A DNA stretch of 45,855 nt. It comes from an uncultured Bacteroidales bacterium (GTDB lineage Bacteria; Bacteroidota; Bacteroidia; Bacteroidales; Paludibacteraceae). The stretch covers positions 1 through 45,855 of the forward strand of contig ONUF01000017.1 of NCBI GenBank assembly GCA_900321005.1. The letters are read 5' to 3'. The position numbers and the translations under genes were made by a program. Positions within the stretch are counted from its first letter, which is position 1, and each line of letters begins with the position of its first letter. This document shows, piece by piece, positions 32,382 to 43,556 of this stretch. Under the pieces are notes generated by a model, which had not been told where the DNA came from, searched no databases, and worked only from the letters and a program-made list of their open reading frames with translations.

Positions 32382-33179
32382 ATGAGCATCGAAGAATGGA
32401 TAAGAAATAGAGAGCGGCACGGACAAGTAACCTTTTCTGCCGCAGAGGTACGCGAAGCATTCCCCACCCACTCGCCTAAAGGCCTGAAAACCGAATTGGG
32501 ACGCATGGTGAAGCGTGGACGGATTATTGCCGTGTATAGAGGCTTCTATGTGATTGTGCCGGTACAATATCAGCTAAAGCATATCGTACCGCCGCAATTC
32601 TATTTGGATGCGCTCATGCAATATATCGGCAAGCCCTATTATGTATGCCTGCTCTCGGCCGCCACGCTATACGCCGCAGCGCATCAGCGCCCCATGCAGT
32701 ATCAGGTGATGACCGTCATTCCACGCATATCCATGTCGAACAAGTATCCGTTAATCAGTTGGAATTATCGGACGGAGATTCCCGAGCACCTACTGGTTAC
32801 CCGGAATGCAGAGATGGGCATATTGCGTTATGCCTCTCCTGAACTAACCGCCATTGACCTGGTGCAGTTTGCTGACCATGTAGGCGGCTATCAACGTGCC
32901 GCTACCGTACTTGCCGAACTGATGGAATCCGTCGATATGCAGAAGATGGCGGATGCTATTCCCTATACTACTACGGCTACCGTTCAGCGATTAGGCTACT
33001 TATTGGAATTTGTATTGGAAGAACAGGACAAGTCCGACAAGTTGTTTGCTTTGCTGAAGGCGCAAGCGCCGAAATATCATACCATATGTATGAGCAATTC
33101 GCGCCCGCCGAGAGAGGATGCCCCGTCCAATCGCTGGCATGTGAACATGAATATTGATATTGAGATAGACGATATATGA
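32382..33179 (+). CDS. AbiEi-family antitoxin / transcriptional regulator
   Basis: This 265-residue protein is the antitoxin of a type IV AbiE system. An N-terminal winged helix (FSAAEVREAFPTHSPKGLKTELGRMVKRGRIIAVYRGFYVI) precedes the AbiEi domain with YLDALMQYIGKPYYVCLLSAATLYAAAHQRP and LTAIDLVQFADHVGGYQRAATVLAEL. In known systems AbiEi represses its own operon by binding inverted repeats and counteracts the toxin without direct contact. Its stop overlaps the toxin ATG (ATGA), the usual coupling. The absence of a full second HTH segment and the 265-residue length are normal. Confidence 0.88.
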   Translation: MSIEEWIRNRERHGQVTFSAAEVREAFPTHSPKGLKTELGRMVKRGRIIAVYRGFYVIVPVQYQLKHIVPPQFYLDALMQYIGKPYYVCLLSAATLYAAAHQRPMQYQVMTVIPRISMSNKYPLISWNYRTEIPEHLLVTRNAEMGILRYASPELTAIDLVQFADHVGGYQRAATVLAELMESVDMQKMADAIPYTTTATVQRLGYLLEFVLEEQDKSDKLFALLKAQAPKYHTICMSNSRPPREDAPSNRWHVNMNIDIEIDDI

Positions 33180-33997
33180 TTGACAGAGCCTCTATTATGG
33201 CATGGAACGAACATGCGCCATGGATAGAACCGTTTATGGTGGAACAAGATCTAATTATCTGCCGTGCGTTGGTGGATATCTTCAGCGACGGGTTTCTTCG
33301 CGAGCAACTGGCTTTCCGCGGAGGCACTGCCTTGCATAAACTGTACTTGCAACCGCAGCCGCGATATAGTGAAGATATCGACCTTGTGCAGATTCATCCG
33401 GGTCCGATCAAGCCTATTCTATATCGTCTGGGGGAAGTGCTCAACTGGTTGCCTGACCGTGTCACGAAACCTCGCCGTTTCAACAACACGATGGTCTTTC
33501 GTTTGGAGTCGGAGATTCCGCCGGTTCAGCCCATCCGTCTGAAACTGGAGATTAACTGCTATGAGCATTTCAATGTGTTGGGATGGCAGCATGTTCCCTT
33601 TGCCGTTGAGAACAGATGGTTCACCGGGCAATGCCAACTGACCACTTATGCGTTGGAAGAACTGCTTGGCACCAAACTGAGAGCACTATATCAGCGGAAG
33701 AAAGGCCGTGACTTGTTCGATTTATATGTTGCGCTCCAGTCTCCGGATGTCACTATTAATCTTGATAATGTGGTGACTTGCTATCAACGATATATGGAAT
33801 TTGTTGTTGAGAAAGCACCTACGTACAAGCAGTTTATCCAAAATATGGAATTGAAGATGCAAGACGAGGAGTTTTTAGGTGACACTCAGCATCTTCTCCG
33901 CAATGGTGCGACCTTTGACCCGCAAACAGCTTATGAATTAGTGAGAGAAAAGTTAATTGATCGTCTGACTCCGTCCTCCGCCTTAACCGACCGATGA
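33176..33997 (+). CDS. AbiEii nucleotidyltransferase toxin
   Basis: This 273-residue protein carries the nucleotidyltransferase motifs of AbiEii/AbiGii toxins: FRGGTALHKLY (48-57), with the GG of the GS-like motif, then RYSEDIDL (63-70) with the two metal-binding acids. A later block, TTYALEELLGTKLRALYQRKKGRDLFDLY, is the family signature. AbiEii toxins use nucleotides to modify targets such as tRNA acceptor ends, which stops growth in phage-infected cells. The gene follows abiEi with a 4-base overlap. The stop codon's last base is the first base of the right 19-bp repeat arm. Confidence 0.9.
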   Translation: MIDRASIMAWNEHAPWIEPFMVEQDLIICRALVDIFSDGFLREQLAFRGGTALHKLYLQPQPRYSEDIDLVQIHPGPIKPILYRLGEVLNWLPDRVTKPRRFNNTMVFRLESEIPPVQPIRLKLEINCYEHFNVLGWQHVPFAVENRWFTGQCQLTTYALEELLGTKLRALYQRKKGRDLFDLYVALQSPDVTINLDNVVTCYQRYMEFVVEKAPTYKQFIQNMELKMQDEEFLGDTQHLLRNGATFDPQTAYELVREKLIDRLTPSSALTDR

Positions 33998-34015
33998 CCG
34001 AGAGATGACCGAGAG
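33997..34015 (-). repeat. Right arm of the 19-bp inverted repeat, within 11-bp tandem repeats
   Basis: ACCGAGAGATGACCGAGAG mirrors 31905-31923 exactly. It lies inside about two and a half tandem copies of an 11-base unit (ACCGAGAGATG) directly after the abiEii stop codon. Confidence 0.85.
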
Positions 34016-34047
34016 ATGACCAATTTTTATATATTGGAAAATTTTAG

Positions 34048-34070
34048 TATCTTTGCACGCCAAAGCGTGC
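34048..34070 (+). promoter_or_regulatory. -7 box with start-site hairpin of the restriction-modification operon
   Basis: TATCTTTG at 34048-34055 is followed by the perfect palindrome GCACGC/GCGTGC with loop CAAA (34055-34070). The -33 element is weak. The bases TATCTTTGCACGC and GCGTGCAGA are identical to those of the DUF1295 promoter read on the other strand. Confidence 0.65.
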
Positions 34071-34116
34071 AGACAACAAAGAAATAAATTACACTACATA
34101 ATAAAATCATACAACG

Positions 34117-36168
34117 ATGGCACAACAATCCGTAGAACCTCAAATTGCCGACCTCGCTAACGGCTGGCTCAAACAGTACAAACTCAAATATTTTATTGAG
34201 CAAGACGCGCCCAACGCTGAAATCAAGAATGCGTTGCTTGAATATGAGTCTAAACAAGGTGGTACTGGCGGCAATCGTCCCGACTGCAATTTGCTGCTCC
34301 AAGATAGTCAAGGCGAGTGGTGGCCTGTTCTTATCGAATACAAAGGCTACAAGGACAAATTGGTCAAACTGGACAAGGAAGGACAAGTTGCCAATCGGAA
34401 TACCAAGGGAAATCCTGAATACAAAAATATCAGCCAGTATGCTGTCAACGGTGCTGTTCACTACGCCAATGCGTTATTGCACTACACCGCCTATGAGCAT
34501 GTTATTGCCATCGGCATCACTGGTTACAAGGATTCTGCCACTCTTGAGTTGCATCATGAGTTGGGCGTTTATTATGTAGGAAAAAGCAACTTTGGTGTAG
34601 GACAACGCATCGGCGATTATACCGATTTGTCATTTCTTGCACCAAAACATTTCGAATCCTTCATAGAGAAGGTTCGTAATTTGAGCATTGATCCTGACGA
34701 ACTAGAAAAGCTCAAGCAACACCGAGAACAAGAGATCAATGCCAGTCTTGTCAAACTAAATAATGAGATTTTCAAAGAAGAAAAGGGACTATTAGAGAAG
34801 GACAGAATCTACCTTGTTGCTGCAACGATTATTGCTACATTAGGCGTTCCTAATAAAGTAAAACCGTTGGAGAAAAGCGACTTACGGTCTTCACAAGAAC
34901 TTGGTAGCCGTGACGGAGACATCATAACTCAGAAAATTAAGAATTTTCTTGCAGATGAAGACAAGCGAATCCCCGCAGACAAACAGTCTTTGATTGTTCG
35001 CACATTGGAGAATACGCTAACGAACGAAAACATCAACCGTGCAGAAAATGGAGAGAGCCAACTCAAGCGTGTTTTCGTGAAAATATATGACGATTTAGGC
35101 ATGTACTATAAAATTGGTCTTACTACTGATTTCACCGGTCGTCTATTCAACGAAATGTATCAATGGCTCGGATATACAAAAGACAAACTGAATGATGTAG
35201 TACTTACACCTTCATACGTAGCCACACTTTTGGTTCGTTTAGCTCGCGTAAACCGCAATAGTTACGTATGGGACTTTGCTACAGGTAGCGCAGGTCTGTT
35301 GGTTGCGGCTATGAACGAAATGCTTGTGGATGCCAAAGCAAACATTCATTCCCCCGAAGCTCTTGCGCGTAAGGAAGCAGAAATTAAAGCCAACCAATTA
35401 TTGGGTCTTGAAATATTGACCGATATATACATGCTCGCTATCATTAACATGATACTCATGGGAGACGGTCGTTCTAATATTCTAAACCAAGACTCTCTTA
35501 ATGGATATTCTGGCAACTATTTATATTCTAAACCCAATGAATATTTCCCTGCTGATGCATTCGTACTAAACCCGCCTTATTCTGCTCCGGGAAATGGTAT
35601 GGTATTCGTAGAACGTGCACTTTCCATGATGTGCCATGGCTATGCGGCCATCATTATTCAAAACTCGGCAGGTAGTGGAAAGGCTGTTGATTACAACAAA
35701 CGCATTCTTCAGCACTCTACTCTATTGGCAAGTATCAAAATGCCATTAGATCTTTTCATCGGCAAAAGTAATGTACAGACTTACATATATGTATTCCGCG
35801 TTGGCGAAGCGCATAAAAGCGATGACATTGTACGCTTCATTGACTTTAGCAATGATGGTTATACACGCACGAATCGTAAAAAAGCATCTATCAATTTGCG
35901 AGATACAAACCATGCTCGTGAGCGCTACAAAGAAGTTGTGGATATAGTTCGTATTGGCAAATCTGCTATCAAATACATTGATCCTAAGAATTTCTACGAA
36001 GGGCATATTGACCCGACAAAAGGAGATGATTGGAATCAGTCAGTTCCTATGGACACTCGTCCGACATTAAGTGATTTCCGCCGCACCGTGGCAGATTATC
36101 TCGCATGGGAAGTATCTAATCTCCTCAAAAACAAAAAAGATGAGGAGGATGGCCTGGGAAAATTTTAG
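34117..36168 (+). CDS. BcgI-like type IIB restriction-modification subunit (nuclease plus N6-adenine methyltransferase)
   Basis: This 683-residue protein has an N-terminal PD-(D/E)xK-like nuclease (RPDCN with Asp56, then WWPVLIEYKGYKDK with Glu74 and Lys76). The C-terminal N6-adenine methyltransferase has motif I WDFATGSAGLL (385-395) and motif IV NPPY (485-488). This order matches the A subunit of BcgI-type systems, in which one polypeptide both cuts and methylates and a separate subunit sets the sequence. No separate HsdR gene is present, as expected. The stop TAG overlaps the start region of the specificity gene and is followed at once by a 15-bp inverted repeat. Confidence 0.88.
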   Translation: MAQQSVEPQIADLANGWLKQYKLKYFIEQDAPNAEIKNALLEYESKQGGTGGNRPDCNLLLQDSQGEWWPVLIEYKGYKDKLVKLDKEGQVANRNTKGNPEYKNISQYAVNGAVHYANALLHYTAYEHVIAIGITGYKDSATLELHHELGVYYVGKSNFGVGQRIGDYTDLSFLAPKHFESFIEKVRNLSIDPDELEKLKQHREQEINASLVKLNNEIFKEEKGLLEKDRIYLVAATIIATLGVPNKVKPLEKSDLRSSQELGSRDGDIITQKIKNFLADEDKRIPADKQSLIVRTLENTLTNENINRAENGESQLKRVFVKIYDDLGMYYKIGLTTDFTGRLFNEMYQWLGYTKDKLNDVVLTPSYVATLLVRLARVNRNSYVWDFATGSAGLLVAAMNEMLVDAKANIHSPEALARKEAEIKANQLLGLEILTDIYMLAIINMILMGDGRSNILNQDSLNGYSGNYLYSKPNEYFPADAFVLNPPYSAPGNGMVFVERALSMMCHGYAAIIIQNSAGSGKAVDYNKRILQHSTLLASIKMPLDLFIGKSNVQTYIYVFRVGEAHKSDDIVRFIDFSNDGYTRTNRKKASINLRDTNHARERYKEVVDIVRIGKSAIKYIDPKNFYEGHIDPTKGDDWNQSVPMDTRPTLSDFRRTVADYLAWEVSNLLKNKKDEEDGLGKF

Positions 36169-36206
36169 CCCCACTTGACATTAAGCTACGCAATGTCAAG
36201 TGGGGC
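36168..36206. repeat. 15-bp perfect inverted repeat at the start of the specificity gene
   Basis: GCCCCACTTGACATT (36168-36182) and AATGTCAAGTGGGGC (36192-36206) flank a 9-base loop (AAGCTACGC). The left arm contains a run of four C (36169-36172). With three C instead of four, the reading frame from ATG 36149 would be continuous into the specificity gene. Confidence 0.9.
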
Positions 36207-36224
36207 CAATATAGGCTTGATGAA

Positions 36225-37766
36225 TTGTTTGAAATACAAAACACGTCAAGTTTTAACACAGATAGATTAACAGAAGGCAATGAGTATGACTATGTCACTC
36301 GTACTTCTCTCAATCAAGGAATATTGCAATCTACTGGTTTTGTAAATGATACGAATATCAATCCTGCTGGTACTTGGAGCCTTGGTTTACTTCAAATGGA
36401 CTTCTTTTATCGCAATAAACCTTGGTACGCAGGACAATTTGTTAGAAAAATTGTCCCTAAGATTCATATACCCCAAAGGGCTATATTGTTTTTTCAGACT
36501 ATTCTAAACATGCAAAAGTCTGTTTTGTTACAAGTTCTTGTGCGCAATGTTGATGAGACATTTCGCAATATTAATGTACAATTACCTCAAACTAACAACG
36601 GAGACATAAATTTTACATTTATAGAAGAATTCTTGCGCGAACTCGAGAGGGCGCGCTTGCGCGAACTCGAGGCTTACTTGAAGGCTACCGGGCTTGATAA
36701 TTATGAACTTACCGAAGCAGACAAAGATGCACTTCGCAACTATAAAAATCTGCAATGGAAAGAATTCAATATAAAAGAACTATTTGGAGCCTCAACACGT
36801 GGAAGACGTCTTAAAAGCGAAGACCGTATTCCTGGTATATTACCTTTTGTAACAGCAGGCGAAGCTGAAACCGGAATCTCCGCTTTCATCGGCAATAATG
36901 TGACTGTTTTTGAGAGCAACACTACCACTATAGATATGTTTGGGTCTGCCAAATATCGTAACTACAAATACGGTGCAGACGACCATGTAGCAGTAATTCA
37001 TACAGAAAAGCTACAAAAGCATGCTGCTATCTTTGTGACTTCCGCTTGTCATCAAGCCGCACACACGGGTAAATTTAACTATGGCAACAACTTTTATGCA
37101 AAAGATGCAGATGAGTTATACATTATGCTACCGACTGCAGATGGCAAGCATCCGGATTTCAACGCAATGGAAAGACTGATTGCTGCCATGCAAAAGATTG
37201 TTATTGCAGATGTTGCCAAATATACTGCCCGCAATCTGGAAGCTACGCAAGAAGTTATCGACAATCAAGAAGAACGACAAGAGCCCGCCATCACTCCTCT
37301 GCATATTTATGACATCTATCAGCCGGGGCGCATTCCTTTGTATACACTCCGCGCTGCCTGCGGATATTTCGATGAAGGAGAAGTGCCCGAACCAGAAGGT
37401 TGGATTGATGCTACAGGGAATGGCTTTACGCCAGACCCCAAGCGGCACTTTGCCATCCACGCCAAAGGCGATTCGATGCTCCCAAAAATAAAAGACGGTG
37501 ACATCTGCATCTTTGAATGGTATAACGCCGGCACACGTAATGATGAGATTGTGCTTACTCAAAGCCGCGAATATGATCCGGAATATGGAGGCAAATACAC
37601 CATCAAACGCTATCACAGCGAGAAGGTTGTTTCCGAGGAAGGGTGGCAGCACAGCAAAGTCGAACTCCGCCCCCTCAACCCCGATTTCGATACAGTTGAG
37701 CTAACCGAAGATGACGATATCCGCACCATCGGCATCTTCAAATGCGTGCTATTGTTAAATAATTGA
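36225..37766 (+). CDS. Specificity subunit (BcgI/HsdS-like) fused to a LexA/UmuD-like S24 peptidase domain
   Basis: The uninterrupted frame (513 residues from TTG 36225) has two target-recognition units with a helical spacer each (ELERARLRELEAYLKATGL and NLQWKEFNIKELFGASTRG start unit two). A complete S24 domain follows: predicted self-cleavage pair Cys379-Gly380 (TLRAACGYFDEG), catalytic Ser417 in AKGDSMLPKIKDGD and Lys461 in YTIKRY. Spacings are like those of UmuD (38 and 44 against 36 and 37). The true start is probably ATG 36149 (MAWENFSP...LDIKLRNVKWGQYRLDELF), which needs removal of one C from the run 36169-36172. As written, the N-terminal 25 residues are out of frame. The second unit aligns with that lost start (QWKEFNIKELF against KWGQYRLDELF). 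Confidence 0.82.
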   Translation: MFEIQNTSSFNTDRLTEGNEYDYVTRTSLNQGILQSTGFVNDTNINPAGTWSLGLLQMDFFYRNKPWYAGQFVRKIVPKIHIPQRAILFFQTILNMQKSVLLQVLVRNVDETFRNINVQLPQTNNGDINFTFIEEFLRELERARLRELEAYLKATGLDNYELTEADKDALRNYKNLQWKEFNIKELFGASTRGRRLKSEDRIPGILPFVTAGEAETGISAFIGNNVTVFESNTTTIDMFGSAKYRNYKYGADDHVAVIHTEKLQKHAAIFVTSACHQAAHTGKFNYGNNFYAKDADELYIMLPTADGKHPDFNAMERLIAAMQKIVIADVAKYTARNLEATQEVIDNQEERQEPAITPLHIYDIYQPGRIPLYTLRAACGYFDEGEVPEPEGWIDATGNGFTPDPKRHFAIHAKGDSMLPKIKDGDICIFEWYNAGTRNDEIVLTQSREYDPEYGGKYTIKRYHSEKVVSEEGWQHSKVELRPLNPDFDTVELTEDDDIRTIGIFKCVLLLNN

Positions 37767-37824
37767 CTGTAAACAACATGCAGATGTATTGCTGCGAATC
37801 CAAAAAATATTAATCTAATACTAT

Positions 37825-40233
37825 ATGATTTCTAAAGTTTCGTACATCAAAAATTTTGCAGTATTCCAAGATTTCAATTGGGATAATTCTATTTGTGATG
37901 CTGATGGCAATATATTGGAGTTCAAAAAGAACAACATAATCTTTGGTCATAATTATTCTGGGAAAACTACATTGTCAAGGATTGTTAGATCATTAGAAAG
38001 GAAAAAATTGCCTGAAAAATACGATAATCCTCAATTCTCGATAAAAATCAATGGTGTAGACATAACGGAAACAGATTTGGAAACATGTGGTGATACCATA
38101 AGAGTTTTCAATGAAGACTTTGTAAGAGAAAACTTAGCTTTTATAACCAATCCAGATGACGCATCAATAGTGCCTTTTGCTGTTGTTGGAGAAGGAAATG
38201 TTGAAATCACCACGAAGATAAATGATATTAATGATGAACTCGGTGACGAAGGAAAAGAAGAAGGACATCTAAAAACAAAGCTTTATAAAGAACAAGAAGA
38301 AAAAAATAAAGCATATTTGGAGGCGAAAAAAGCATATGATGATGCGCAAAATTCTTTGAACTATAAATTAAGTCAAAAAGCAAATGGCGATAGAGAGCAC
38401 TCCATTAAATACGATCCTATTTATGGAATGCCCGCTTACACATTCAATGCTTTAGTGAGAGATATTAATGAGATTCATAACACATCATACAAACCACTTA
38501 CGAAAGAAGAAATACAACAGAAAAAAGACATGGTTCGGGAAGACGCTAAAAATAACATATCCGAACCTAAACAATTGAAAATTTCATTCGAAGATATAAA
38601 TAAAACGGTAAGGGGTCTTCTTTCTCGCAAGGCAGGGAAAAGTGAAAAGATTGAAGAATTGGTAAAAGATGCAGCTTTGCAAAGATGGGTAGAACAAGGA
38701 AAACTATTGCATCAAGGCAAGAGAACTGTTTGTGCATTTTGTGGCCAAGAAATTCATAAAAACAGATGGGAACAATTAGAGAAACATTTTGACACAGAAC
38801 TTGCAGAAGTTAACGAATCCCTTGATGCACAATACAATGAATTGCAAGAACTCATTAACCGGGTTAACTCCTATTATGCTTTAAACAAATCTGAATACTA
38901 TAGCAGCCTAGCACCCGATATCGATAATTTTACCACAATTTGGGATTCTTTAAAGAAAAACATTATTTCATATCTTAAAACTTTGCAAGAGCAAATAGAG
39001 GAAAAAAGAGGAAAACTTTTTGAGCCAATTGAATTTAATGAAACTAAAGATTTCACTGGGGAATTAGACGATATCTATTCAACTTTAATCGCTATCATTC
39101 AAAAACATAACGGCTACACAGCTTCCATAACAACTCAAAAGAAGGAAGCGCAAACCGCGTTAAGATATGATGCGGTGTACGAGTTTGCAAAAACGATCAA
39201 TTACCAACAAGAGATTATAAATATTTCTAAATTAGATGATACAGCTAAAAATAAGAAAAAGGAACTTGATGATATCAATGAAATAATTAATAACAAAAAG
39301 AAAGAAATAGAGTCTCTTAAAAAACAGATAAATGATGAAGAAAAAGGAGCCGAGAAAGTAAATGAATATCTCACAGGATTCTTTGGACATCAATATCTAT
39401 CATTAGAAGCATTCAAGGAGGGAGAGGATAAACCCTATCGGTTCACGATAGTAAGAGATGGGAAACCGGCATATCATCTAAGCGAGGGCGAATGTAGCTT
39501 AGTGGCTTTTTGCTATTTCATGGCGCGTTTGGAGGATAATATAACAAAAGGAACTCAACCAATCATATGGATAGATGATCCAATATCAAGTTTGGATGCA
39601 AATCATATTTTCTTTATTTATTCATTGATCAATGAGAAAATTGCGAGCCGAGAAGATTCATATCAACAATTGTTTATATCTACACACAATCTCAATTTTT
39701 TGAAGTATCTCAAACGACTTCCAGGAGCAGATAACGAAATAAATAATAAGCCAAATGAAGGCAAACGGAAATATAGACATTTACTTGTACAAAGAAAAAA
39801 TATGTGTTCTGATATTCTCATAATGCCCAATTATTTGAAGGAATACATAACTGAATTTAATTATTTATTCAAACAAATATACGATTGTGCAACCTTGGAT
39901 ATTACAGATGATAATTATGCTACAATTTATAATTTTGGCAATAACGCTCGAAAATTCTTAGAGTTATATTTGTATTATAAGTATCCTAAAAGTATGAAAG
40001 ACCGCGACAGGTATACCAAGTTTTTTGGCTCTGAGGATAAAATACCTACTATTTTAATTGAACGAATTAATAATGAACACTCCCACCTTTCTGGTAGCTT
40101 TGAAATAGGCGGAACACCGGTAGTAGTTCCGGAAATGAAAAAGGATGCACAGTTCATTTTGAAAACGATTAAAGAAAAAGACAACGACCAATATAATGCT
40201 CTCTTAGAGAGTATCGGAGCATCCATTGAGTGA
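37825..40233 (+). CDS. RloC/PrrC-like AAA_13 ATPase with zinc hook, candidate anticodon nuclease
   Basis: This 802-residue ABC-type ATPase has Walker A GHNYSGKTT (41-49), signature LSEGE (552-556), Walker B IIWIDDPISSLD (580-591) and an H-loop STHN (619-622). Between two coiled coils stands a CxxC zinc-hook candidate (VCAFCGQ, Cys303 and Cys306), as in Rad50 and RloC. The C-terminus resembles the PrrC anticodon-nuclease domain: NNARKFLELYLYYKYP gives Arg709 and Glu713 (spacing four), and RINNEHSHLSG gives His754. PrrC, kept silent by a restriction system, cleaves tRNA-Lys when phage disable that system; RloC combines this with DNA sensing. The gene follows the specificity gene by 58 bases and is much richer in A+T. 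Confidence 0.82.
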   Translation: MISKVSYIKNFAVFQDFNWDNSICDADGNILEFKKNNIIFGHNYSGKTTLSRIVRSLERKKLPEKYDNPQFSIKINGVDITETDLETCGDTIRVFNEDFVRENLAFITNPDDASIVPFAVVGEGNVEITTKINDINDELGDEGKEEGHLKTKLYKEQEEKNKAYLEAKKAYDDAQNSLNYKLSQKANGDREHSIKYDPIYGMPAYTFNALVRDINEIHNTSYKPLTKEEIQQKKDMVREDAKNNISEPKQLKISFEDINKTVRGLLSRKAGKSEKIEELVKDAALQRWVEQGKLLHQGKRTVCAFCGQEIHKNRWEQLEKHFDTELAEVNESLDAQYNELQELINRVNSYYALNKSEYYSSLAPDIDNFTTIWDSLKKNIISYLKTLQEQIEEKRGKLFEPIEFNETKDFTGELDDIYSTLIAIIQKHNGYTASITTQKKEAQTALRYDAVYEFAKTINYQQEIINISKLDDTAKNKKKELDDINEIINNKKKEIESLKKQINDEEKGAEKVNEYLTGFFGHQYLSLEAFKEGEDKPYRFTIVRDGKPAYHLSEGECSLVAFCYFMARLEDNITKGTQPIIWIDDPISSLDANHIFFIYSLINEKIASREDSYQQLFISTHNLNFLKYLKRLPGADNEINNKPNEGKRKYRHLLVQRKNMCSDILIMPNYLKEYITEFNYLFKQIYDCATLDITDDNYATIYNFGNNARKFLELYLYYKYPKSMKDRDRYTKFFGSEDKIPTILIERINNEHSHLSGSFEIGGTPVVVPEMKKDAQFILKTIKEKDNDQYNALLESIGASIE

Positions 40234-40384
40234 AATGTTTATGGCTAACAAACAAAAGCAATAAAATTAGAGTACCATCGAATATAATCGGCTAATCAGG
40301 TAGCAAGGGTTATCAATTGGCGTATTATCAATATATCCATAGCGATTTGTTATAGTCCCAGAATATTTTCTAAAAATCTATATT

Positions 40385-41680
40385 ATGAAAAAATTATATT
40401 TCGTTGAAAGCATTAAAGCAAATGTTTCTCCAGAAGGTGAAATAACTGGATATAATATTTTGTATGAAGATGTTGAGATTACCGAGAAATCAGAAAGTCC
40501 TCGAAGAGATAACATCAATGAGCCTTATGAAATCCAGGAAGGACGCAGTCCTTTCATTAATAATGTATATCCCACAGTCCCCATTCCCAAGAAAGCAAAA
40601 CGTCCTTTGCATGAGGGGCAATATGTATACATAGATGGCGAACACCTCATTTCGGCAACAAGTAATTCAATAGCTAAAAGACGTCGAGCAGATAATAGAA
40701 CATATCGAGAGAGATTATTATCCGAAAGAGGTATTGATGAACTTGAAAGTTATTATTCCGATGAAACTCATGTAAAATCATACCATGTGAATGTCGGGCA
40801 TGGGAATTGTACAATTATATTAATTCAAGATCATAACTTTTATCAAATATGGATGGTTGATTGCGGAGCTATTGATCAAATGAACCATATAAATTACTAT
40901 AGTAATATTGATAACTGTTTCGCAGATATAGCTCACATTCTAAATAAAGATAAGTCAAGTCTTTTTATCTCTAAATTTCTGTTAACCCATTGGCACTATG
41001 ACCATATTTCAGGCATTCCATATCTTATCAGAGATGGATATATCAAACAAACAACACAATTCTATATGAATCTATATTACGAGCATTCCTCGCAATGTAT
41101 GAATGAAGTTCTTAAAAAGCTGGATAATCTTCATGTCTCATGTTACGAACCAACTAGCTTTTTAAATCATAAACACCCCCGTAAAACCATAGCCATACTT
41201 CACCCTAATTGTCGTATTCGAAGGAAATATTCACATAAAGATCCAAACAGCCGATTTGTTAGTAATATAAACAACTCCTCTGTGGTGTATTCTATTTCAG
41301 TCGTAGGCAGAACAATGGTATTTCCTGGAGACATAGAAAAAGATGGACTGGATTATATGACAATGACGCGAACTTGCCAAAATCAGCCTCTTTGTCATAC
41401 AGATTATTATTGTGTCTCGCATCACGGTAGTTTAAATGGGCATATAGATATTGATTGTATGGGTAATAGTCACTTTAATAATATAGGAAGGTGTTTGCGT
41501 GCTTACTCCCTGAAAAAAGCGATAATAATGGGACGTGATAAAGCTTTCTCTGGGATATATAGTCCTGTCGTCCAGAATTATTGGAAACGGATTCATAAAT
41601 ATTCAGAGTTCGATGCGTCGGGAAAACCCTGCAAAGCCTATGTCTTAGAGTGGAACTCTGGAGCTGATTCTTATTTATAA
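40385..41680 (+). CDS. MBL-fold metallo-hydrolase, ComEC/Rec2-like
   Basis: This 431-residue protein has an N-terminal unrecognised region (1-130, basic around residues 98-112) and a metallo-beta-lactamase fold. The opening strand YHVNVGHGNCTIILI resembles the VGQGDS block of ComEC-type enzymes. Metal ligands are visible in LTHWHYDHISG (His202, His204, Asp206, His207), MVFPGDIEKDG and VSHHGS. Such domains hydrolyse phosphodiesters or bind nucleotides. No signal peptide is seen, so it acts in the cytoplasm. It is preceded by 150 bases without a gene and lies between the RloC-like gene and the 615-residue gene, all on one strand and AT-rich. Confidence 0.82.
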   Translation: MKKLYFVESIKANVSPEGEITGYNILYEDVEITEKSESPRRDNINEPYEIQEGRSPFINNVYPTVPIPKKAKRPLHEGQYVYIDGEHLISATSNSIAKRRRADNRTYRERLLSERGIDELESYYSDETHVKSYHVNVGHGNCTIILIQDHNFYQIWMVDCGAIDQMNHINYYSNIDNCFADIAHILNKDKSSLFISKFLLTHWHYDHISGIPYLIRDGYIKQTTQFYMNLYYEHSSQCMNEVLKKLDNLHVSCYEPTSFLNHKHPRKTIAILHPNCRIRRKYSHKDPNSRFVSNINNSSVVYSISVVGRTMVFPGDIEKDGLDYMTMTRTCQNQPLCHTDYYCVSHHGSLNGHIDIDCMGNSHFNNIGRCLRAYSLKKAIIMGRDKAFSGIYSPVVQNYWKRIHKYSEFDASGKPCKAYVLEWNSGADSYL

Positions 41681-41708
41681 TTTTTCTGTCATTTATCAAA
41701 TTAACATT

Positions 41709-43556
41709 ATGGGAAAGCTTGTAATGGACGCCTTAACGTACGGCTCGTTTCATCAAGAAGTAATTCTTAAACTGCCTTTTCTAAAAAATCATGTAACGAG
41801 CAAGTCTTTTTATGATAAAGCTTTATACTATGCAAATAACATTAACCTTTCTCCAGAAGGGCGGATACTTGATGTCCTGGCTGTAACTCAGGCTGAAATT
41901 ATTTCCGAATACGGGAAAGCACTTCCAAACGTTACGCCAACAATTTACTACTCTAATATAATGTGGGAATATGTATATATTCTCTTATATTACGCACATT
42001 ATGGGGAACAATTATGGATTGATACCATAATGCCCAAGATGTGGAAGATGCAGAAAAATGCGGTTATACGAGACGAGATGAAAAAAGGCGAAGAATATGT
42101 CGACGAATATATAAGTGCTCGTAGAGATTTTAATGAGAAAAAGCGCGCTGCTTCTCTGCAAGCAGAAACGGTACCTGATGTAGTGCAGATAATGCGAGAT
42201 ATTAACGCTGGAAAGATCCGCTATATCGAAGTTGACTGGGAGCAACAAATAAAAGCCGTTTTGAAACTCTGCAAGTTAATGCCCACCAAATTCCCTTATG
42301 TCATTTGGTTGTGGGGATTATTAGGCGAGATAGAAGACCCAACTATCCGTATGGATATCATCGGTAAAATGCAAAGTGCGGCTCCAAAATGTTTCGATGA
42401 CCAATTCGAGGCACAAAGGTTTATTGAAGAGTGCACTTGCATATACCAGATATGTATCAGGGCACGAGCATACAACCTCAAAAACGATATAGGTATTCGA
42501 CACAAATGGACTGACGAAAGAAAAAGTCTTAATGATTTAGCGCATATCTTTTCCGATAAAGTAGTCGAGCCATCATTGATGGTTGCGCTCGCCGAAGAAA
42601 TGTATAGTTCAGTACAAGATGGAGAAAAGAAGCATTATATGCTCACTCTTGTATTGAGAGCTCCACGTAGTATCGGCAAACTAACTATTGATAATATCGT
42701 TGATTTCGCAAAGAATCTATATATTGCCGAAGGTTTCCGCCAACTACTCATAGAGGGAAAAGAAGATTCATTGGATGTGCCTACCTTAGAAACATTTAAT
42801 TGGAAATTGCGTAACGCATGTTTCGATGTCTATATTAACTTACGAAAAGCGCTAATCAAAGAAGAACTTGAGCAAGACAATACGCGAGTCGATGGTGCAA
42901 GTGATGTTGAATGCTTGGAATATTTACTGGAAGAAGAAAATGCTGTTGTAGATCGCGAGAATGGATTAGAGCAATTCCGTGGGTCTGCGGCTTATCATGC
43001 AATGTGGTATCCAGGACGTCAAATAGTTCTGGATATGATTAAGGTCTTTATCAAGTATTTGCAAACACGTATTGAGAAAGCGAAAAAAGATGCAGCAGAA
43101 AATGAAGCACTCGCAGCAATAAGTTCCAACGCTGCTGTTGCAAAAATGGCAGCCATAGTCAAGCAAGCAATAAGCGGACAGGGCGAACAACATGCACAAC
43201 AAGAGTTAAAAGAAGAGACGACTACCGAAGATGGTATTGAGAACAAAAAGAAGACACCAACGAAAGAAGAGATAGAGGAGATCTTCCTTCCAATCTATAC
43301 CAGGACTGCCAATTGCCAAATGCTAATCAACCTTTTACTTGATGACAGAGACAAAGTATCTGATACCGATTGGGCACGCTATGCATTGACGATCTATCGT
43401 TGCAAGAAGATCTTCAGACATCACCCGGAATCATTCAAAGATTGGTTGCCAAAATTCTGCTCGTTGCTCGGAAGAGATGTGGAATATCGGGCTCCGAGTG
43501 ATTTGAATAGAACAAAGTGCAAAACGGATATCTCATCATTTCTTCCAAAACCATAA
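41709..43556 (+). CDS. Unrecognised 615-residue protein of the defence island
   Basis: I do not recognise this family. The protein is helical and soluble, with many charged residues. A lysine/glutamate-rich segment in about 450-530 (RIEKAKKDAAENEALAAISS, then EELKEETTTEDGIENKKKT-like sequence) separates a large N-terminal part from a compact C-terminal part (TANCQMLINLLLDDRDKVS and later ESFKDWLPKFCSLLGRDVEY). No nuclease, ATPase or membrane motif is visible. It begins 28 bases after the metallo-hydrolase gene and ends shortly before a terminator, so it is the last gene of the AT-rich defence operon and probably works with the RloC-like and MBL proteins. Confidence 0.75.
   Translation: MGKLVMDALTYGSFHQEVILKLPFLKNHVTSKSFYDKALYYANNINLSPEGRILDVLAVTQAEIISEYGKALPNVTPTIYYSNIMWEYVYILLYYAHYGEQLWIDTIMPKMWKMQKNAVIRDEMKKGEEYVDEYISARRDFNEKKRAASLQAETVPDVVQIMRDINAGKIRYIEVDWEQQIKAVLKLCKLMPTKFPYVIWLWGLLGEIEDPTIRMDIIGKMQSAAPKCFDDQFEAQRFIEECTCIYQICIRARAYNLKNDIGIRHKWTDERKSLNDLAHIFSDKVVEPSLMVALAEEMYSSVQDGEKKHYMLTLVLRAPRSIGKLTIDNIVDFAKNLYIAEGFRQLLIEGKEDSLDVPTLETFNWKLRNACFDVYINLRKALIKEELEQDNTRVDGASDVECLEYLLEEENAVVDRENGLEQFRGSAAYHAMWYPGRQIVLDMIKVFIKYLQTRIEKAKKDAAENEALAAISSNAAVAKMAAIVKQAISGQGEQHAQQELKEETTTEDGIENKKKTPTKEEIEEIFLPIYTRTANCQMLINLLLDDRDKVSDTDWARYALTIYRCKKIFRHHPESFKDWLPKFCSLLGRDVEYRAPSDLNRTKCKTDISSFLPKP

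Follow-up and report, generated by a model that had tools for sequence, protein, structure and literature searches.

A BcgI-type restriction-modification locus with a predicted −1 frameshift and a putative self-cleaving S24 tail

The 45,855-nucleotide contig ONUF01000017.1 (GCA_900321005.1) from an uncultured Bacteroidales bacterium of the Paludibacteraceae, of rumen or gut type, hereafter 'the window', carries a BcgI-type restriction-modification locus in which a fused nuclease and methyltransferase (R-M) subunit is followed, in the −1 frame, by a specificity (S) subunit that ends in an S24 peptidase domain. We propose that a programmed frameshift joins R-M to S and that the S24 tail would cut itself off in response to RecA, relieving restriction; we regard this reading, taken as a whole, as evenly poised between right and wrong, and its parts are weighed separately below. 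Relatives of the tail recur on unrelated defence enzymes. Coordinates are those of the window, and the R-M and S-S24 features lie on its plus strand.

The R-M to S junction and its frameshift signal

The R-M gene (34117..36168, 683 aa) encodes a BcgI-A-like subunit with a presumed nuclease and an N6 adenine methyltransferase, as judged by Pfam and PADLOC: the methyltransferase that marks BcgI-type enzymes is matched by Pfam N6_Mtase (PF02384, E 4.6e-18) and PADLOC REase_MTase_IIG (1.1e-226), while the presumed N-terminal nuclease is matched only by VRR_NUC at 15.4 bits, below that model's cut-off of 23.8, with a PD...EYK string visible. The S frame is open from stop to stop over 36144-37766 and, if entered via a −1 shift, would yield a 534 aa S-S24 product (36162..37766). 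It holds the two recognition domains of a BcgI-type S: Methylase_S target-recognition domain 1 (Pfam PF01420; 36192..36671, residues 17-176 of protein P0001) and recognition domain 2 (PADLOC Specificity_II; 36726..37211, residues 195-356), with scores of E 1.3e-31 for Methylase_S, in two stretches, and 5.2e-71 for Specificity_II. Peptidase_S24 (PF00717; E 5.1e-11, 42.7 bits against a cut-off of 23.3) is found in this same frame, and the tail, delimited by Pfam, alignments and fold matches, covers 37335..37763 including the cleavage-site region PLYTLRAAC-G (the hyphen marks the predicted cut). By the NCBIfam UmuD model NF007621 (22.6 bits, far under the 110 cut-off) the protein is not a member of UmuD.

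The initial annotation of this DNA had placed an S24 domain with a Cys379-Gly380 cleavage pair, Ser417 and Lys461 at the end of a BcgI-like S, and the residues are exactly there when counted from TTG 36225: the predicted cut bond at 37359..37364, Ser417, the nucleophile of the predicted dyad, at 37473..37475, and Lys461, its general base, at 37605..37607. Structure prediction agrees with both halves of the assignment. The AlphaFold model of S-S24 (48 aligned rows; mean predicted local distance difference test score 78.9, mostly 80-90 in the tail; predicted template modelling score 0.52) is matched by Foldseek to HsdS, PacII, EcoR124I and BsaXI S (8w0p) over the body and to LexA, UmuD and lambda CI over the tail, including RecA-bound forms such as 8gmt (UmuD on a RecA filament). 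A sequence search of the PDB returned a single weak match, to the S part.

In the window, no ATG, GTG or TTG lies in the S frame between −60 and +45 relative to the junction heptamer described below. The start initially assigned to S, ATG 36149, lies in another frame and runs into TGA after nine codons; TTG 36225 is a possible start, but the conserved N-terminal stretch would be lost. The two-domain protein is a specificity subunit, as had been annotated, but probably not a free one with its own start: it would be the C-terminal part of an R-M-S-S24 chain.

We surveyed other junctions by aligning the window R-M protein to other loci. At an R-M identity of 45% or more, 26 distinct junctions were obtained (near-copies among them: the window and L053, L070 and L071), with an Acinetobacter plasmid, an Escherichia phage and a faecal phage contig of unverified status among their sources. 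At all 26, S lies in the −1 frame relative to R-M, and a legal X XXY YYZ heptamer (GGGAAAA in 19, GGGAAAG in 4, AAATTTT in 3) sits 7-22 nt 5' of the R-M stop, as compared to 927 of 16166 nine-codon windows (5.7%) elsewhere in these R-M genes. One of five loose Shine-Dalgarno (SD)-like words is present within 20 nt upstream in 23 of the 26. In the window itself, an SD-like AGGAGG (36143..36148, read from the sequence) stands 7 nt 5' of the heptamer G GGA AAA (36156..36162, R-M frame), from which a −1 shift leads into the S frame. The R-M stop codon (36166..36168) lies 10 nt 3' of the heptamer's first base, and the frameshift site is contained in the codons for the last residues of R-M.

Five nucleotides after the heptamer, the window has a 15-bp stem-loop (36168..36206, with 36168-36182 pairing 36192-36206; minimum free energy −27.1, z −5.82); z ranges from −7.66 to −0.25 in 20 further junctions. 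Folding after the heptamer has a median of −22.9 kcal/mol at the 26 junctions, the weakest being −15.5, as compared to a median of −6.4 for 106 in-frame heptamers found elsewhere in these genes, one of which reaches −15.5. Covariation was counted in 15 of the 26 junctions, aligned without gaps and with the near-copies L053 and L071 left out (set A2); a joint alignment of 24 junctions (A3) did not enter the counts, as nine of these have another stem. In the A2 stem 88.4% of cells pair (31.6-44.9% when the stem is slid), 20 cells are changed on both sides (7.7 in shuffles, with none of 500 as high) and 7 pairs carry double changes (8 of 500 shuffles). Shuffles of related sequences overstate significance, and the slides and the strength control are not prone to this in the same way; the stem is also protein-coding, so its variation is restricted. 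What lies 3' of the heptamer, as at frameshift sites, is a conserved structure with covariation. No Rfam family was matched in a scan of 33900-38000.

We consider it very likely, judging by these sequence comparisons, that a programmed −1 frameshift joins R-M to S. Several observations weigh against it: 15 of the 26 junctions do have an ATG, GTG or TTG in the S frame within −60..+45 (ATG in 8), the L119 hairpin is no better than shuffles (z −0.25) and that of L177 is weak (z −2.42), and the count of 'further pair types' in A2 is not above shuffles (113 of 500). S could instead be made by re-initiation or from a non-AUG start after the R-M stop, with the hairpin serving that process. The ATG or TTG codons near some junctions would suit such a route, as would three lactobacillar relatives (38-40% identity) whose S uses its own ATG start; we nevertheless find it very improbable, given that 11 of the 26 junctions, the window included, have no such codon within the interval, and that re-initiation needs no legal heptamer, yet one is present at all 26, in three kinds. 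Among distant junctions (R-M at most 40% identical) a heptamer precedes the stop in 1 of 20 (L141, a G run); the three lactobacillar ones belong to this distant group. That the absent start reflects a sequencing error or a decayed gene might be entertained for a window taken from an incomplete draft (78% complete), but is scarcely credible when the same register and signal stand at 26 junctions and when 29 of 5426 complete E. coli genomes contain the junction of the Escherichia phage copy, the match spanning at least 80% of the query in 20 of these.

In one E. coli record (L202, NZ_CP027380.1), R-M ends at 2723 and S is annotated from 2792, 69 nt later, which omits the putatively frameshift-coded N-terminus; if the signal is real, S is annotated too far downstream in this public record.

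The S24 tail on unrelated defence enzymes

A tail-covering match at E 1e-13 or better is present in 30 of 300 genomes of the same family, many of these matches being at the C-termini of long unrelated proteins. For the wider census, 84,980 species genomes were scanned with a 16-tail alignment (A1); the analysis covers the best 80 of the 128 relatives that this yielded. One of these, L089, was too short, and the residue comparison therefore holds 80 rows (the window and 79 loci) with 78 complete tails, L075 and L080 being incomplete; the tree comprises 79 tails including the window, with L075 and L089 left out.

Among these 79 tails, 23 are carried by Schlafen-type helicases, 17 by HsdR, 12 by BcgI-type S, 7 by single-chain type IIG and 5 by type ISP enzymes, 3 by ResIII helicases, 2 by PLD helicases and 2 by a 759-residue unknown protein, with labels taken from Pfam for representatives and from BLAST to those for the remainder; some HsdR are only 21-25% identical to the reference. 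Carriers seen once are an S beside another R-M (L069), DUF4420, HNH, LlaJI, a DEAD+MZB helicase, a 466-residue unknown protein, a helix-turn-helix repressor and a lone domain. The initial annotation had mentioned such domains on some defence helicases; the fusion is not special to BcgI-type S, as many defence enzymes carry the tail. By phylum, 73 of 78 tail loci are Bacteroidota, with singles or pairs in Planctomycetota, Bdellovibrionota, Kiritimatiellota and Actinomycetota. The tail forms the protein's C-terminus except in L081, L103 and L129, which have an extra 89-140 residues; the L081 and L129 proteins contain no other Pfam domain, save a weak Peptidase_S26 overlap in L129.

The fusion to a BcgI-type S is found in 11 named loci besides the window (one of them, L065, has a stop earlier within its S part), which disposes of the concern that the S24 part is a separate gene joined by an assembly error. 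The cleavage pair, Ser and Lys are present in all 12, the window included.

A quick maximum-likelihood tree of the 79 tails requires 27 carrier changes (the minimum possible is 15, and the shuffled mean 49.8), and its starred branches alone force at least 3 changes for HsdR, at least 3 for Schlafen-type helicases and at least 2 each for BcgI-type S, IIG and ResIII; the exact number is soft, because the alignment has 146 columns and 29 of 76 inner branches are unresolved. The tail has therefore been both inherited along with its carrier and passed between carriers. By these comparisons it is a mobile module on unrelated defence enzymes, with repeated jumps between carriers.

In the type I locus L041, HsdR has the tail and HsdM and HsdS are without it, as is the HsdS of L042; the presence of 17 tails on HsdR-like proteins and of none on an HsdM among the 79 points to control of cutting, not of methylation. 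S is tailed beside a tail-less R-M protein in L069, and R, M, S and S24 form one chain in L059. Between the window and L051 the tail is 97% identical, the S body about 67% and R-M 85%, which indicates that the recognition part changes faster than the tail.

A viral_contigs search with the tail found three weak relatives (27-40% identity). Plasmid and phage records gave matches to the S part, with Halomonas sp. PA16-9 (32%) the sole match to the S24 part among the matches listed. In that record (L201, 1959-4429) a Schlafen-like helicase open reading frame overlaps an S24 one in a different frame, a split relative of the helicase-S24 fusion.

Predicted cleavage of the tail and its possible outcome

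The 78 complete tails have Cys-Gly in 71, Ala-Gly in 4, Cys-His in 2 and Cys-Thr in 1, and Ser and Lys in all 78, such that a Cys-Gly or Ala-Gly bond and both dyad residues are kept together in 75. Across the 79-tail alignment, the cleavage-site region (Pro 79/79, second Ala 78/79, Cys 75/79, Gly 76/79) is, by these column counts, conserved to the degree of the dyad itself (Ser 79/79, Lys 78/79). This region is required for cutting alone, and its strong conservation beside the dyad argues for real cutting; we think that the tail probably cleaves itself.

Among the tail-less BcgI-type relatives (11 S proteins read), S ends near ...AATQQVINQ in the nearest case, and the window S runs past this point via a linker of 35-45 residues to PLYTLRAAC-G. 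Because the Cys-Gly bond lies about 35-45 residues past the end of the tail-less relatives, the predicted cut would remove the tail alone and would leave a nearly ordinary enzyme. The earlier suggestion that cutting parts the recognition region from the enzyme, or changes its target, does not fit this position.

We lean towards RecA as the trigger. The host genome encodes RecA (459 bits) and a UmuD-like gene, distinct from the S24 tail, followed by an apparent UmuC, and PMC8565304 describes an S24-based SOS response in Bacteroidetes. The Bacteroidetes SOS box CTAA-N5-TTAG, the one motif scanned, is without excess in the window (7 one-mismatch matches against 13.3 expected), which does not favour this reading.

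In the mechanism we propose, most ribosomes would stop after the R-M gene, while some would slip back one base on GGGAAAA before the stable hairpin, yielding R-M alone and a 1216-residue R-M-S-S24 chain (682 + 534). With both products made, the complex would contain more R-M than S. An artificial EcoKI M-S fusion restricts and in vitro requires extra free HsdM (PMC3510504), which is what frameshifting would provide. The tail would act as a self-cleaving regulatory domain: RecA filaments on single-stranded DNA, formed upon damage or phage infection, would induce a cut at Cys-Gly that leaves an enzyme body ending ...RAAC. The new C-terminus may become a protease target, as that of the LexA fragment does, and the purpose would be restriction alleviation, a lowering of restriction at times of damage to the host's own DNA.

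We favour only tentatively the view that the outcome of the cut is restriction switched off, a view in line with the known requirement that the host be spared. What counts against it is that the cut body resembles the tail-less relatives, so that a further step, for example a degron, would be required for activity to be lost; furthermore, both the frameshift and the cleavage are predictions, and in L118, L122 and L126 Cys-His or Cys-Thr replaces Cys-Gly with Ser and Lys retained. The opposite outcome is less plausible but a serious rival: the attached tail may inhibit, and RecA filaments arising during infection or damage may release the enzyme, much as cutting activates UmuD (PMC8565304). Release would suit the ordinary body that remains, equal to tail-less relatives that are presumably active, and also the tailed Schlafen-type and other helicases, proteins in which no methyltransferase accompanies the helicase to shield the host. 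The BcgI-type chain, however, also methylates, and host sites would lack protection before activation of an inhibited enzyme unless cutting alone were blocked. S24 domains form dimers, and the tail might instead stay uncut as a dimerisation or docking domain, for example bringing the enzyme to RecA-coated DNA. The three tails with an altered bond would be at home with such a role; we deem it unlikely, since few columns are as well conserved across unrelated carriers as those of the cleavage-site region and the two catalytic residues.

Neighbouring genes and relation to known systems

An AbiEi/AbiEii toxin-antitoxin pair (32382-33997) lies immediately 5' of the R-M gene. Downstream, 37825-43556 encodes an AAA_13 protein (PADLOC PDC-S06 1.1e-282, PrrC 1.4e-11; CxxC and RxxxxH strings visible), then a protein with a weak match to the metallo-beta-lactamase fold and one of 615 residues that has no Pfam match; genes of matching lengths and order are present in L031. 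The RloC-like neighbour that had been put forward as a second step of the defence is a real gene of the PrrC/RloC-like kind, but a fixed second step is unsupported, as neighbours vary: among the fused loci whose neighbourhoods were compared, the same AAA_13 cassette occurs in L031 only, L034 and L035 have different AAA_13-type or other genes, and L032 and L033 have an unrelated neighbour gene.

The window system shares with the type IIB enzymes BcgI and BsaXI a fused R-M subunit and a two-domain S (the S model matches BsaXI S, 8w0p), and differs in its S24 tail and in an S that would be made via a −1 frameshift and presumably joined covalently to one R-M. The tail resembles UmuD, LexA and lambda CI in its fold, Ser-Lys dyad and Cys-Gly or Ala-Gly bond; unlike them, it is found on the C-termini of restriction enzymes and helicases, not on a DNA-binding domain or a polymerase partner. 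The SD-like motif, X XXY YYZ heptamer and hairpin recall dnaX-type −1 frameshifting as outlined in PMC3711429, whereas here two restriction-enzyme subunits would be joined; no restriction system was found in the passages searched of that paper or of the review PMC5009743. Restriction alleviation of EcoKI by ClpXP likewise controls HsdR after translation, at times when the DNA of the host lacks protection (PMC4231737 and PMC11109961); there an outside protease acts, whereas here the enzyme would cut itself. In the open literature, subscription papers and preprints being mostly outside the search, we found neither S24 tails on restriction enzymes nor BcgI-type frameshifting described.

Restriction enzymes endanger their host when its DNA is damaged or replicated unmethylated; in the best-known solution, that of E. 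coli, an outside protease destroys HsdR. We suggest, at a little under even confidence, that one interchangeable, RecA-sensing, self-cleaving tail serves as a common post-translational switch on type I, ISP and IIB/IIG enzymes, Schlafen-type helicases and other nucleases, such that damage or infection would reset several defences at once, and that on the BcgI-type enzyme the tail is delivered by a frameshift that sets the subunit ratio. If true, the −1 frameshift would be a cellular, non-transposon use of this mechanism, setting the ratio of R-M to S; the built-in self-cutting tail would be a new and direct link between restriction and the DNA-damage signal, and its occurrence on unrelated enzymes would mark it as a general design and not a curiosity.

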